Part shown: in pieces, positions 6,663 to 56,627 of the stretch | Numbering within the stretch: the first letter of the stretch is position 1 | Layout: the number at the start of each line of letters is the position of its first letter | Program-made: the position numbers and the translations under genes | Source: Ectobacillus funiculus | GTDB taxonomy: Bacteria > Bacillota > Bacilli > Bacillales > Bacillaceae_G | Direction: 5' to 3' | DNA length: 64,000 nucleotides | Assembly: GCF_004138295.1 (NCBI RefSeq) | Contig: NZ_SCFM01000030.1 | Location: 1-64,000, forward strand | The notes under the pieces: generated by a model | What the model saw: the letters and a program-made list of their open reading frames with translations, nothing else | The model's database searches: none | What the model was told of the DNA's origin: nothing

Positions 6663-6803
6663 AGAAACACTCCTATAAATTTACCTTTTCTTCATATTAG
6701 TAAATTATACCACGTGCTCCTATTTCATTCAAAATTACGAAAAATTTTTCTATCATCACGTATAAATTGTAAAAATACGGATACAATACTAACACATGGC
6801 TTT

Positions 6804-8006
6804 CTAGTATTCCCCCCCTTTTTGGGACAAAACATTCATCGTTTTGTCTCTTTTTTTGTCTACAAAACGTTTGATGCGCTTAACTGCCTCCATCAATTGC
6901 TCCATAGAGGTCGCATACGAACAGCGAATATAACCGTTGCCGCTTTCCCCAAATACAGATCCCGGCACAACTGCAACCTTCTCCTCAAGCAATAGCTCCT
7001 CAGCAAATTGCTCCGATGTCATGCCTGTGGAACGAATAGACGGAAACGCATAAAATGCGCCTCCTGGCATATGACATGTTAAACCCATTTCATTAAATGA
7101 TTTCACGATAAAATTTCTTCTCTGCTTGTAGCTTTTCCGCATCGCAATTACATCCCGGTCGCCTGCCCGCAGCGCCTCAATCGCCGCAAACTGCGCCATC
7201 GTCGGTGCACACATAAGCATATATTGATGAATTTTCAGCATATGCTCAAGGAAAAAGACCGGAGCTGCCACCATTCCAAGGCGCCAGCCTGTCATTGCAA
7301 AGCCTTTAGAAAAACCGGAAATTAAAATGGTATGGTCGCGCATGCCCTCAATGCTGGCAAAGCTTGTATATGATTCGTCATACATCAGCTCTGCATAAAT
7401 TTCATCAGACAATACAATCAGATTATAACGTTCTACAACATCAGCAATCGCTTCTAGCTCATCCTTATTTAATGAAGTACCTGTTGGATTGCTTGGTGAA
7501 CAAAGAAGCATCGCTTTCGTATGCTCTGTAATAGCTGCCTCTAGCTCCTCCGGCTGCAGCTTAAATCCGTTTTCAGGACTCGTAGAAACAGAGATTGGAA
7601 TTCCTCCTGCAAGCGTAACAAGCGGTGCATATGCAACAAAGCATGGCTCAATAACAAGCACCTCATCACCAGGATTGATAATGGTTCGTAATGCGATATC
7701 AATTGCTTCGCTTGCCCCTACTGTAATGAGGATTTCTGACGCATCATACGAAACATCGAATTTTCGTTTAAAATAACTAGATGCCTCCTGACGCAGCTCC
7801 AACAGTCCAGCATTTGCTGTATAAGCTGTATAGCCCTCCTCTAGAGAACGAATAGCTGCTTCGCGCACATTCCATGGTGTTACAAAATCTGGTTCCCCAA
7901 CACCAAGTGAAATTACGCCTTCCATTCCTGACGCAAGATCAAAAAATTTGCGGATGCCAGATGGCTTCAGCGATGTTGCTGTTTCAGACAAAGTGAACGT
8001 CTTCAT
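6804..8006 (-). CDS. yugH: PLP-dependent aminotransferase (YugH/PatA-like)
   Basis: A 400-residue fold-type I class I/II aminotransferase. Landmarks are the N-terminal GVISLGVGEPDF, CSPSNPTGT near 170, LSDEIYAELMY near 200 and the PLP-lysine motif SGFSKGFAMTGWRLG near 232-246. Its ATG overlaps the last bases of yugG, so the two are translationally coupled. The C-terminus is a little longer and more basic (KKRDKTMNVL) than usual. The amino-acid substrate cannot be read from sequence. Confidence 0.88.
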   Translation of the reverse strand: MKTFTLSETATSLKPSGIRKFFDLASGMEGVISLGVGEPDFVTPWNVREAAIRSLEEGYTAYTANAGLLELRQEASSYFKRKFDVSYDASEILITVGASEAIDIALRTIINPGDEVLVIEPCFVAYAPLVTLAGGIPISVSTSPENGFKLQPEELEAAITEHTKAMLLCSPSNPTGTSLNKDELEAIADVVERYNLIVLSDEIYAELMYDESYTSFASIEGMRDHTILISGFSKGFAMTGWRLGMVAAPVFFLEHMLKIHQYMLMCAPTMAQFAAIEALRAGDRDVIAMRKSYKQRRNFIVKSFNEMGLTCHMPGGAFYAFPSIRSTGMTSEQFAEELLLEEKVAVVPGSVFGESGNGYIRCSYATSMEQLMEAVKRIKRFVDKKRDKTMNVLSQKGGEY

Positions 8007-17874: not shown

Positions 17875-18873
17875 ATGCAATCAAAAGCAAGAATTACAGC
17901 TATTGGGACCTATATACCTGAAAATAAGCTTACTAATGATGATCTAGAAAAAATGGTAGATACAAATGATGAATGGATTGTGCAAAGAACAGGCATGAGG
18001 GAAAGAAGAATTGCTGGTGATAATGAGTATGCCTCTACACTAGCTTTTAAAGCTATTAAAAACTTAGCAGAACAGTATCATAAAAATATTGCTGACGTGG
18101 ATTGTATTCTAGTTTCAACAACTACGCCTGATTACGCTTTTCCAAGTGTAGCCTGCCAAATCCAAGAGCATTTTAATATTCCGCATACAGGCGCTATGGA
18201 TCTTAATGCAACTTGTGCGGGCTTTACATATGGATTACACTTGGCAAATGGTTTAATTACATCTGGTCTTCATCGTAAGATTTTAGTTGTAACAACAGAA
18301 ACCTTATCTAAAGTTACAGACTACACAGATCGGACGACATGTATCTTATTTGGAGACGGAGCCGCCGCTGTCTTAGTAGAAAAAGATGAAAAATTTCCGA
18401 GCTTTATAGCTACTCATATGGGAACAAATGGAGGAGGCGGCATGCATGTATATCGTACCAATTTGTCCACTACCATGTTCGGGAACCCCTTGAGCACACG
18501 TGAAAAGATGGTTCAAAACGGAAGAGAAGTATATAAATGGGCATCACGTACACTGCCAGTTGGCATCAAAGAATTATTACGTCAAGCAGAACTGCCAATG
18601 GATGAAATAAGCTGGTTTGTTCCGCACAGTGCCAATTTACGAATGATTGAATTAATATGTGAAAAATCGGGTTTCCCGCTCGATAAAACATTAACAAGTG
18701 TAGAATATATGGGGAATACCTCTTCTGTCTCCATTCCATTAGCCTTACAAATAGGGATCAATGAAGGCAAATTAAAAAATGGAGACACTCTTTTGCTTTA
18801 TGGCTTTGGAGGCGGCCTTACACATGCTGGACATATCGTTAAATGGAATTTAACCAAGAAGTATGGACAATAA
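17875..18873 (+). CDS. fabH: 3-oxoacyl-ACP synthase III (KAS III, FabH-type)
   Basis: A 332-residue KAS III that condenses an acyl-CoA primer with malonyl-ACP to start fatty-acid synthesis. The catalytic triad is present: Cys114 in NATCAGFTYG, His251 in VPHSANLRMIE and Asn281 in YMGNTSSVSIPLA. The ATG follows AAGGGGATG. A FapR-type operator covers its promoter, which fits the second FabH of Bacilli (FabHB in B. subtilis). The gene is not part of the B. subtilis order around it and its codons look more AT-rich than those of glyS, so it may have moved here. Confidence 0.92.
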   Translation: MQSKARITAIGTYIPENKLTNDDLEKMVDTNDEWIVQRTGMRERRIAGDNEYASTLAFKAIKNLAEQYHKNIADVDCILVSTTTPDYAFPSVACQIQEHFNIPHTGAMDLNATCAGFTYGLHLANGLITSGLHRKILVVTTETLSKVTDYTDRTTCILFGDGAAAVLVEKDEKFPSFIATHMGTNGGGGMHVYRTNLSTTMFGNPLSTREKMVQNGREVYKWASRTLPVGIKELLRQAELPMDEISWFVPHSANLRMIELICEKSGFPLDKTLTSVEYMGNTSSVSIPLALQIGINEGKLKNGDTLLLYGFGGGLTHAGHIVKWNLTKKYGQ

Positions 18874-18877
18874 CAGC

Positions 18878-18915
18878 AAAAAGGTGCATCAACTAATTGT
18901 TGATACACCTTTTTA
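18878..18915 (+). terminator. fabH terminator
   Basis: AAAAAGGTG-C-ATCAAC pairs with GTTGAT-A-CACCTTTTT around a 5-base loop, six bases after the stop codon. Confidence 0.85.
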
Positions 18916-18976
18916 CAATTCAATCAAACAAGCTAGATACTTTTCTTTCGAAAAACGCATTGCAACCTATATTCGC

Positions 18977-19273
18977 CTAAGAACCGCTTACCTTACTTCC
19001 CCCAAAGCCGCTCTTTGCTTTTCCTTTCGCAATGGATGATTTTTTGCTTTTGTATTCATCGGTATCCGGGTATGCTGTATTCCCAACATAAAAATAACGA
19101 TAATGACGAGAAGCTGTATCATCACACTCCCACTCGTCGTCACCATAGTCATATTCGTATTTAGAGCAATATGGATCTTCTGGCTTAGGAGGCAGTTCAT
19201 CATCCCCGCATCCAGCCAATGTGCCTCCGAGTGCTGCTGTTACGCCAAGCATAATTTTTTTTGTTTTCTTCAT
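18977..19273 (-). CDS. Acidic lipoprotein behind a Mn2+ riboswitch, function unknown
   Basis: A 98-residue lipoprotein. The signal peptide MKKTKKIMLGVTAALGGTLAGC ends in lipobox LAGC. The mature part is acidic (YDYGDDEWECDD) with two further cysteines and many Asp, Glu and Tyr residues. It has a Gly/Ser/Lys-rich tail ending GFGGSKVSGS. The ATG has GGGGAAATATGG upstream. I do not recognise the family. The riboswitch upstream makes a role in manganese handling at the cell surface plausible (inference), with the acidic residues as possible metal ligands. A longer open frame upstream runs into the riboswitch and is not coding. Confidence 0.75.
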   Translation of the reverse strand: MKKTKKIMLGVTAALGGTLAGCGDDELPPKPEDPYCSKYEYDYGDDEWECDDTASRHYRYFYVGNTAYPDTDEYKSKKSSIAKGKAKSGFGGSKVSGS

Positions 19274-19315
19274 CCATATTTCCCCTTCCCTTTGGCAAGT
19301 ATGTCCAAGGACATC

Positions 19316-19447
19316 AAAAAGACCTTTGCCGATAGCGGCAAAGGTCTTGCAAGACATAGTTTGCATGTCAACAAAGCCGGTGAATCAAATAATTCACGTC
19401 ATGACGACTTTGTTTCAGGGCATTTCCCCTGAAGCTACTCCCCTTTG
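19316..19447 (-). promoter_or_regulatory. yybP-ykoY manganese riboswitch
   Basis: On the minus strand the aptamer begins AAAGGGGAGTAGC (19434-19446). It continues with ACAAAGTCGTCATGACGTGA, then TCACCGGCTTTGTTGACAT and GCAAGACCTTTGCC. These match the conserved helices and the two Mn2+-binding loops of this riboswitch class. The last strand pairs with GGCAAAGGTCTTTTTG to make an intrinsic terminator at 19316-19347. High Mn2+ should stabilise the aptamer and allow read-through into the lipoprotein gene 43 bases further on. Confidence 0.95.
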
Positions 19448-19540
19448 AATCCTGTATGCTGTTATACGCTACATTTTATAATATATTCAGAATGATGTAA
19501 ATGATATCCTTTTTAGAACGTTGTAAGGTTTTTTATGTAT

Positions 19541-56454: not shown

Positions 56455-56627
56455 TAAAAAAACCTCTCTGCTTCAGACAAGCAGAAAGGTTTCGAACAAT
56501 CGCCGTATATCCTTTCCTCTCATCTCTCAAAGCATTCGCTTCGCAGGAATTGGCACCATTTCAACATGTGCTGACGGTTGCCGGGCTTCACAGGGCTCAG
56601 TCCCTCCACCTCTCTTGATAAGAGAAC
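56455..56627 (-). promoter_or_regulatory. SAM-I riboswitch (S-box) with terminator
   Basis: On the minus strand CTTATCAAGAGAGGTGGAGG opens the aptamer. GGACTGAGCCCTGTGAAGCC, CGGCAACC and GGTGCCAATTCC follow. These are hallmark S-box elements. The aptamer closes with GAGAGATGAGAG. A terminator stem AAACCTTTCTGCTT/AAGCAGAGAGGTTT with TTTTTTT lies at 56455-56494. SAM binding should terminate transcription before metN. Confidence 0.97.

Follow-up and report, generated by a model that had tools for sequence, protein, structure and literature searches.

The window analysed here, a stretch of 64,000 nucleotides from Ectobacillus funiculus, carries a manganese riboswitch followed on the reverse strand by a gene for a small lipoprotein. 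The riboswitch (the Mn2+ or yybP-ykoY class, RF00080), comprising aptamer and expression platform, is placed at positions 19309–19449 (−) by its RF00080 match, and the gene for the 98-residue lipoprotein lies at 18977–19273 (−), stop codon included. A sequence resembling a ribosome-binding site, AAGGGAAGGGG (19282–19292 (−)), precedes the ATG by 8 nt. Upstream of the riboswitch, a candidate sigma-70/A-like promoter, TTTACA-17-TAAAAT (19473–19501 (−)), agrees with the consensus at 10 of 12 positions; the region has three promoter-like sites where shuffled sequences give 2.0 (sd 1.2), and the argument for this one is therefore its position and not its score. A terminator-like hairpin stands 3′ of the lipoprotein gene (18876–18916 (−)), and hence the lipoprotein transcript is probably monocistronic. 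The locus is a known switch in front of an unusual gene, and the span of 18977–19447 given for it in the earlier note is correct.

In a search of 701 bases, RF00080 is matched at 19294–19455 (−) with 39.3 bits (E 4.1e-9), and a search of the whole genome returns the same match (E 7.6e-9). The Rfam gathering score for RF00080 is 45, and a search of the window at Rfam gathering scores consequently misses the aptamer. Matches to RF00080 at E ≤ 0.01 occur in all 19 genomes of the bacterial family, of which only five pass the gathering score, so that a score below the cut-off is the usual case here. The earlier note had called the aptamer and its terminator unmistakable: both are present, but the word is slightly strong for a match under the curated cut-off with one unusual loop base. 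A family model, R1, gives the window aptamer 137 bits and the other lipoprotein-linked aptamers scores within 137–141 bits, all of these sequences—the window's included—being among the 16 rows on which R1 was trained. The leader of 191 nt folds at −64.2 kcal/mol (z −4.26), and none of 200 shuffles does as well. A match to GlmZ_SraJ over the same stretch (24.6 bits, E 0.00065, Rfam gathering score 60) was discounted, being a different model's score for these very stems and this terminator. Two further RNAs were recorded elsewhere in the window: a SAM riboswitch at 56517–56624 (−) (87.4 bits) and the Bacillus sRNA ncr1241 at 6793–6855 (+) (65.3 bits).

The structure of the aptamer was assessed in an alignment of 16 sequences from the family, of which four precede the lipoprotein, 11 precede frames whose translations look TerC-like, and one precedes another gene, with P1.1, P2, P3 (in two parts), and P4 placed from the fold of the window sequence. 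In this four-helix structure, 97.8% of cells are paired against 91.5% in shuffled alignments, a value that none of 500 shuffles reaches, while versions of the structure slid along the alignment pair only 26%–49% of cells. Two-sided changes are found in 9 of 29 pairs (equalled in 1 of 500 shuffles), and the covariation score is 0.262 against 0.133 (0 of 500). The number of further pair types, at 19 against 17.9 (159 of 500), shows no excess over chance. Covariation thus supports a four-helix junction of the window aptamer's type.

The switch helix P1.1, formed by CAAAGG (19442–19447 (−)) and CCUUUG (19339–19344 (−)), is paired in 16 of 16 sequences and, because it is invariant in all of them, has no covariation to support it. 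Its 3′ strand also lies in the 5′ arm of an intrinsic terminator hairpin of 13 pairs with a loop of four, followed by a T run (19319–19348 (−)). In the terminator, 98.1% of cells are paired; all changes are one-sided, and none of its values exceeds those of shuffles. Through the shared strand, P1.1 and the terminator are mutually exclusive, which is the arrangement expected of an ON switch as far as letters can tell. The terminated form is computed at −40.9 kcal/mol and the aptamer form at −25.6 kcal/mol, both taken without ligand or tertiary contacts, and OFF therefore looks like the default. The anatomy of the leader supports a predicted Mn2+-dependent regulation of the lipoprotein gene.

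The metal loop in L3 reads U-C-A-U-G-A-C (19398–19404 (−)), as placed by the aptamer alignment and matched by eye to the loop letters of Lactococcus lactis. By this match, the equivalent of A41, the invariable Mn2+ sensor in L. lactis, is the A at 19402, and U46-C47-A48 and C52 of the window occupy the corresponding L. lactis places. Positions 7–16 and 42–48 of the window row, which bear on L1, L3, and the sensing A, are invariant in 16 of 16 sequences. In excerpts of PMC9190785 and PMC6754395, the Mn2+ site of L. lactis consists of G9, U39, C40, A41, U44, and C45, with specificity for Mn2+ conferred by N7 of the invariable A41, and U43 forms a U-turn in L3. At the place equivalent to U43, the window carries a G (19400) where a U is usual: among 25 distinct aptamers fitting the search pattern, only that of the window shows G, and the other 24 have T. 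That the window aptamer is a yybP variant sensing another divalent ion, or one that has drifted into a poor sensor, would explain this base, and variants of altered metal specificity 'seem likely' according to a passage of PMC7266159; we nonetheless regard this as improbable, given that the sensing A, the UC preceding it, and the C that matches C45 are all intact and that the three sister riboswitch–lipoprotein pairs retain the U. The aptamer of Xanthomonas oryzae, moreover, also differs in its L3 sequence and yet senses Mn2+ (PMC6754395, in part), and hence the G of the window is a caveat on affinity and not a refutation of Mn2+ sensing.

The predicted protein has a signal peptide over residues 1–21 and the lipobox LAGC, with Cys22 as the lipid-bearing cysteine. 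The signal was judged by eye, and Cys22 is invariant in 45 aligned members of the family. A mechanically called ORF of 129 aa, beginning at 19366, was rejected as the gene start because relatives begin at the shorter start, which also has the site resembling a ribosome-binding site and gives a signal peptide with a lipobox. No Pfam family matches the lipoprotein at E ≤ 1, and the sole NCBIfam match is to LptM over residues 1–23, that is, over the signal peptide, with an E-value of 0.21 and below the cut-off. The earlier note's claim that the gene encodes a lipoprotein of 98 residues and not a Mn2+ exporter—TerC, MntP, and P-type ATPases being multi-pass proteins—is borne out by the lipobox and by the lack of a Pfam match. 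Its acidic stretch, YDYGDDEWECDD, spans residues 41–52 (19118–19153 (−)), and the two mature cysteines reported besides Cys22 are Cys36 and Cys50. In the branch with the riboswitch the mature protein has 14–18 D/E residues, and a single operon copy taken for comparison has 12, so that acidity is only partly specific to that branch. Members of the riboswitch branch also have a shorter segment between the cysteine module and the tail, and this segment carries PDTD.

Conservation was read from an alignment, A2, of the window protein with 44 of the 57 loci found in named genomes, 13 having been omitted (near-copies, and L146 with its short frame). W48, C50, and D51 are invariant in the 45 aligned members, as are G89-F90-G91-G92 within the conserved C-terminal tail SGFGGSKVSGS (18980–19012 (−)). 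The AlphaFold model is weak (mean pLDDT 65.6), with four short strands and one helix; a fold search with it gave no match (best PDB match E 4.7), and consequently no metal site can be drawn. No solved relative of the family was found at E ≤ 1.

Other Bacillaceae were suggested as a place to look for the same pair, and there it is present. A protein search finds the lipoprotein family in 17 of the 19 family genomes, and the aptamer lies directly upstream of the lipoprotein in four of the 19, the window genome included, belonging to two genera: the window genome (G000), Ectobacillus antri (G001, locus L092), and G003 of genus g1, and Bacillus sp. 165 (G017, locus L091) of genus g3. The pair is absent from G002, which belongs to the same genus as the window genome and has no member of the lipoprotein family, from 13 genomes of genus g2, and from G018 of genus g4; it is narrow in distribution for that reason. 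GlyRS-like, thioesterase, and PdaC-like neighbours are common to the window, G001, and G003, Pfam having named the thioesterase and PdaC genes of the window and resemblance the rest. The lipoprotein directly adjoins the GlyRS-like gene in G001 and G003, and in the window a KAS III-like gene (17875–18873 (+)) lies between the two.

Three of the six species pairs give a finite dS (2.47, 1.92, and 0.32, with dN/dS of 0.07, 0.10, and 0.01), and in the other three synonymous sites are saturated; dN does not exceed 0.19. The lipoprotein is under purifying selection, as taken from the dN/dS of the three pairs with finite dS. It is accordingly most improbable that the terminated leader is itself the product, a regulatory RNA to which the lipoprotein is incidental: its terminator is strong, as such an RNA would have it, but the switch has remained beside its frame over a divergence that saturated synonymous sites or came close to doing so.

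Scans with R1 around and upstream of other members of the lipoprotein family returned no further aptamers, with only 13.7-bit matches besides the known ones; they covered 82 loci (25 plus 57 named) and then 82 stretches (22 around and 60 upstream), with some genomes represented twice and 27 weak or partial lipoprotein rows left out. R1 is sensitive enough for this purpose, since it recovers 10 distinct P2-less aptamers, unlike its training rows, at 73–91 bits. Viral contigs, in a search able to show close relatives only, and plasmids yielded no relative of the lipoprotein. No riboswitch–lipoprotein pair was found in the portions of the literature covered, a scope that excludes the gene lists of the two primary riboswitch papers of 2015, which may contain it; the only co-mention found of yybP-ykoY, manganese riboswitch, and lipoprotein places the lipoprotein in a SAM-I table row.

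Several other RF00080 aptamers were noticed in the window genome and its relatives. At L002 (window genome, C82:207267–207354 (−)) and L055 (G002), P2-less aptamers precede small FbpB-family proteins (PF13040, E 4.6e-14 and 3.4e-8), with, by eye, an apparent second terminator between aptamer and frame; a Mn2+-type riboswitch before a homologue of the Fur-regulated basic proteins would link Mn2+ to the iron-sparing response. The aptamer at L003 (window genome, C110:24453–24538 (+)) precedes a 66-aa frame rich in His, Ser, and Lys (1721–1921) with only a weak Pfam match below the cut-off (E 0.051), and that at L005 (window genome, C82:70769–70850 (+)) is followed, after about 200 nt, by a Spo0M gene (PF07070, E 6.9e-21). 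At L004/L150 (window genome, C117:6607–6685 (−)) and the sister loci L060 and L065, the aptamer is followed by a frame that we take to be YkvA/DUF1232-like and then by TerC, identified as PF03741 in the window genome; L060 and L065 have, between the two, a frame presumed to be DedA-like. Finally, P2-less aptamers with two terminators by eye lie some 500–900 nt before a presumably HtpX-like frame at L061 and L063 (Gottfriedia-type genomes G014 and G015), and L063 carries between aptamer and frame a 148-aa lipoprotein-like frame that looks unrelated to the window's protein.

The lipoprotein has been described as unknown, and it is uncharacterised; it is, however, not isolated, as its family is tied to an ATP-grasp ligase of the glutathionylspermidine-synthetase type (GSP_synth) and to DUF350. 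Of 397 genomes in a sample of the order, 117 contain the family according to profile A1, and these represent 44 of 135 genera. The scan of named genomes, made with one peptide pattern and thus missing relatives that do not show it, gave 57 loci, none titled as belonging to the Bacillus cereus group. By tblastn, 55 of these carry GSP_synth on the strand of the lipoprotein and 52 carry DUF350; L091 and L092 alone lack both, and they are also the two with the aptamer. Thus the DUF350–lipoprotein–GSP_synth cluster is present neither at these two loci nor around the window copy, whose neighbours are KAS III-like and thioesterase-like genes. In Robertmurraya yapensis (L099), the order is lipoprotein, DUF350, a 159-aa protein of unknown type, a GSP_synth-like gene, and a gene that we assume from its GYGD motif to be K+-channel-like. 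Pfam identifies DUF350 at L099 and GSP_synth (PF03738) in the operon of the window genome, an enzyme whose closest solved relative is Escherichia coli YgiC (E 1e-14).

An operon-type copy of the lipoprotein is kept in all four riboswitch genomes, directly before a GSP_synth-like frame recognised by Pfam in the window genome, by tblastn in G001 (L093) and G017 (L126), and by resemblance in G003. All four riboswitch-linked proteins fall together in a single clade (100/99) of a 48-row tree, on a stem of 0.73 changes per column, and group with five operon-type copies from the same bacterial family (nine rows, 99/96). The exact sister of the riboswitch clade is unsure (91/50), the midpoint root serves for drawing, and the Gottfriedia copies, although of the same bacterial family, fall elsewhere. 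The simplest account is one duplication, loss of the neighbours, and gain of the riboswitch; a later transfer between the two genera that carry the pair may have followed. The window gene seems to be an orphaned duplicate of the lipoprotein gene from a peptide–polyamine-ligase-like cluster, placed under a Mn2+ ON switch, a reading that rests on the ligase at 55 of the 57 named loci, on the riboswitch at the exceptions, and on the operon-type copy that the four genomes keep.

We favour, with somewhat better than even confidence, the reading in which a Mn2+ ON riboswitch controls this single duplicated cluster lipoprotein and so supplies an extra, Mn2+-inducible dose of a cation-binding protein that is perhaps a partner or substrate of the ligase. 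At low Mn2+, CCUUUG would join the terminator hairpin and transcription would end about 40 nt upstream of the start codon. With Mn2+ bound between L1 and L3, P1.1 (CAAAGG/CCUUUG) would keep CCUUUG and block the terminator, allowing the lipoprotein to be made. The protein would then be exported, anchored through the lipid on Cys22, and display a short acidic Cys36–Cys50 module and a Gly/Ser tail. Having arisen by duplication from the lipoprotein/DUF350/ATP-grasp cluster, with its neighbours lost and a riboswitch gained, its most likely job would be that of an additional cluster lipoprotein at the membrane under high Mn2+, a cation-binding protein of the envelope, and it may still serve as partner or substrate of a ligase encoded elsewhere. 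The sequence itself establishes the aptamer, the overlap of P1.1 with the terminator, the lipobox, the kinship, and the conserved association of switch and gene; the response to Mn2+, export, cation binding, and ligase partnership are what we infer here. Ligase partnership would fit the C-terminal tail and the relatives' gene neighbourhood, the link being to paralogues of the window gene. Cation binding would be consistent with the protein's acidic module and its Mn2+-type control, and also with the part that TerC proteins, one of them under a riboswitch, play in metalating exported Mn2+ enzymes (PMC10550928, in part). The protein may be the surface metal binder suggested earlier: its E. coli counterpart DUF1190 has been termed a metal-chelating lipoprotein (PMC11237479, in part), but homology to it did not extend past the region of the lipobox.

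The same acidic, cysteine-containing, membrane-anchored protein might act independently of the ligase cluster, buffering Mn2+ at the surface or serving as its metallochaperone, in concert with TerC-type proteins in the metalation of exported enzymes. The ligase is missing from the neighbourhood throughout the riboswitch branch, aptamers of the same P2-bearing type stand before TerC-like frames in G001, G003, and G017, and the window genome has a P2-less aptamer before its TerC operon; in Bacillus subtilis, the TerC proteins MeeF and MeeY serve in metalating the Mn2+ enzymes that the cell exports, and meeY is under riboswitch control (PMC10550928, in part). We consider such a role somewhat unlikely, as operon copies that have no riboswitch conserve W48, C50, D51, and the tail to the same degree—so that these serve more than a Mn2+-only role—and the AlphaFold model offers no drawable metal site.

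Rather unlikely, too, is that Mn2+ induces the lipoprotein as an additional substrate for GSP_synth, with a polyamine attached to its C-terminal Gly/Ser tail. A GG terminus is shared by E. coli YgiB and YjfM, by 39 of the 45 aligned proteins, and by all 13 loci omitted from the alignment; the six that end in GS are three riboswitch proteins and three operon copies, all of the same bacterial family, of which Gottfriedia, ending in GG, is also a member. A terminal serine differs from the glycine carboxylate of glutathione, which counts against a substrate role, the conservation of the tail may have other causes, and YgiB and YjfM are not detectable homologues. In favour of such a role is the peptide–spermidine ligase activity reported for E. 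coli YgiC and YjfC (Pederick 2023, as cited in passages of PMC12568646 and PMC10948618). A bolder statement of the whole, that a Mn2+-sensing RNA directly controls a lipoprotein of a peptide–polyamine-ligase system which, produced at high Mn2+ as an acidic envelope protein and either polyamine-tailed or free, tunes cation binding at the membrane surface, we hold to be distinctly unlikely as it stands. If true, it would link Mn2+ homeostasis to protein polyaminylation, a link that was not found in the portions of the literature covered.

The genes behind Mn2+ riboswitches are a main clue to Mn2+-handling proteins, and the pair described here would bring a gene of an unexpected type into the set that bacteria switch on when manganese is plentiful. 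A family of ligase-associated lipoproteins would thereby gain a concrete stimulus, Mn2+, together with a small target for purification, and a route would open to the purpose of the widespread DUF350/lipoprotein/ATP-grasp clusters (yjfLMC in E. coli). Should the protein bind cations at the membrane, an envelope step would be added to a regulon of exporters and TerC proteins.

Among known systems, the leader most resembles the yybP-ykoY ON switch of L. lactis yoaB, to whose aptamer its letters are, we believe, nearly identical overall. Both have a four-helix aptamer with GGGGAGUAG in L1 and UCA in L3, and in both a strand of P1.1 doubles as a strand of the intrinsic terminator. The window differs in the G at the U-turn position of L3 and in the gene downstream, which encodes a lipoprotein where that of L. 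lactis is an efflux gene. In L. lactis, Mn2+ stabilises P1.1, whose 3′ segment is otherwise taken by the terminator (PMC11087558, in part). A second comparison is with meeY/ykoY and other TerC genes under Mn2+ riboswitches in the Bacillaceae, the window aptamer being of the P2-hairpin type that is found before the TerC-like frames of the sister genomes; TerC is, however, an integral membrane protein, in contrast to the 98-aa lipoprotein without a Pfam family encoded in the window.

For the protein, the comparison is with E. coli, where yjfL (DUF350), yjfM (DUF1190), and yjfC form one cluster and ygiB and ygiC another, YjfC and YgiC being annotated in RefSeq product names as peptide–spermidine ligases. 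The DUF350 protein of the family's cluster is similar to YjfL (pairwise E 1.8e-16). Assignment of the lipoprotein itself to DUF1190 (YgiB/YjfM) was tried and rejected, as neither the window protein nor its relatives match PF06693; hhalign, comparing the profiles, aligned no more than 28 columns, at the lipobox (12.4% probability, E 0.0023). By sequence comparison, then, the Bacillaceae lipoprotein holds the place of DUF1190 in the cluster and yet is no detectable homologue of it. Operons of DUF350, DUF1190, an ATP-grasp enzyme, and a K+ channel have been described, with DUF1190 termed a metal-chelating lipoprotein (PMC11237479, in part). Like that operon and the two E. coli clusters, the relatives of the window lipoprotein stand with DUF350 and a GSP_synth ligase, and the operon's K+ channel has its counterpart in the K+-channel-like gene of Robertmurraya; the riboswitch-linked lipoprotein, in contrast, has left the cluster.
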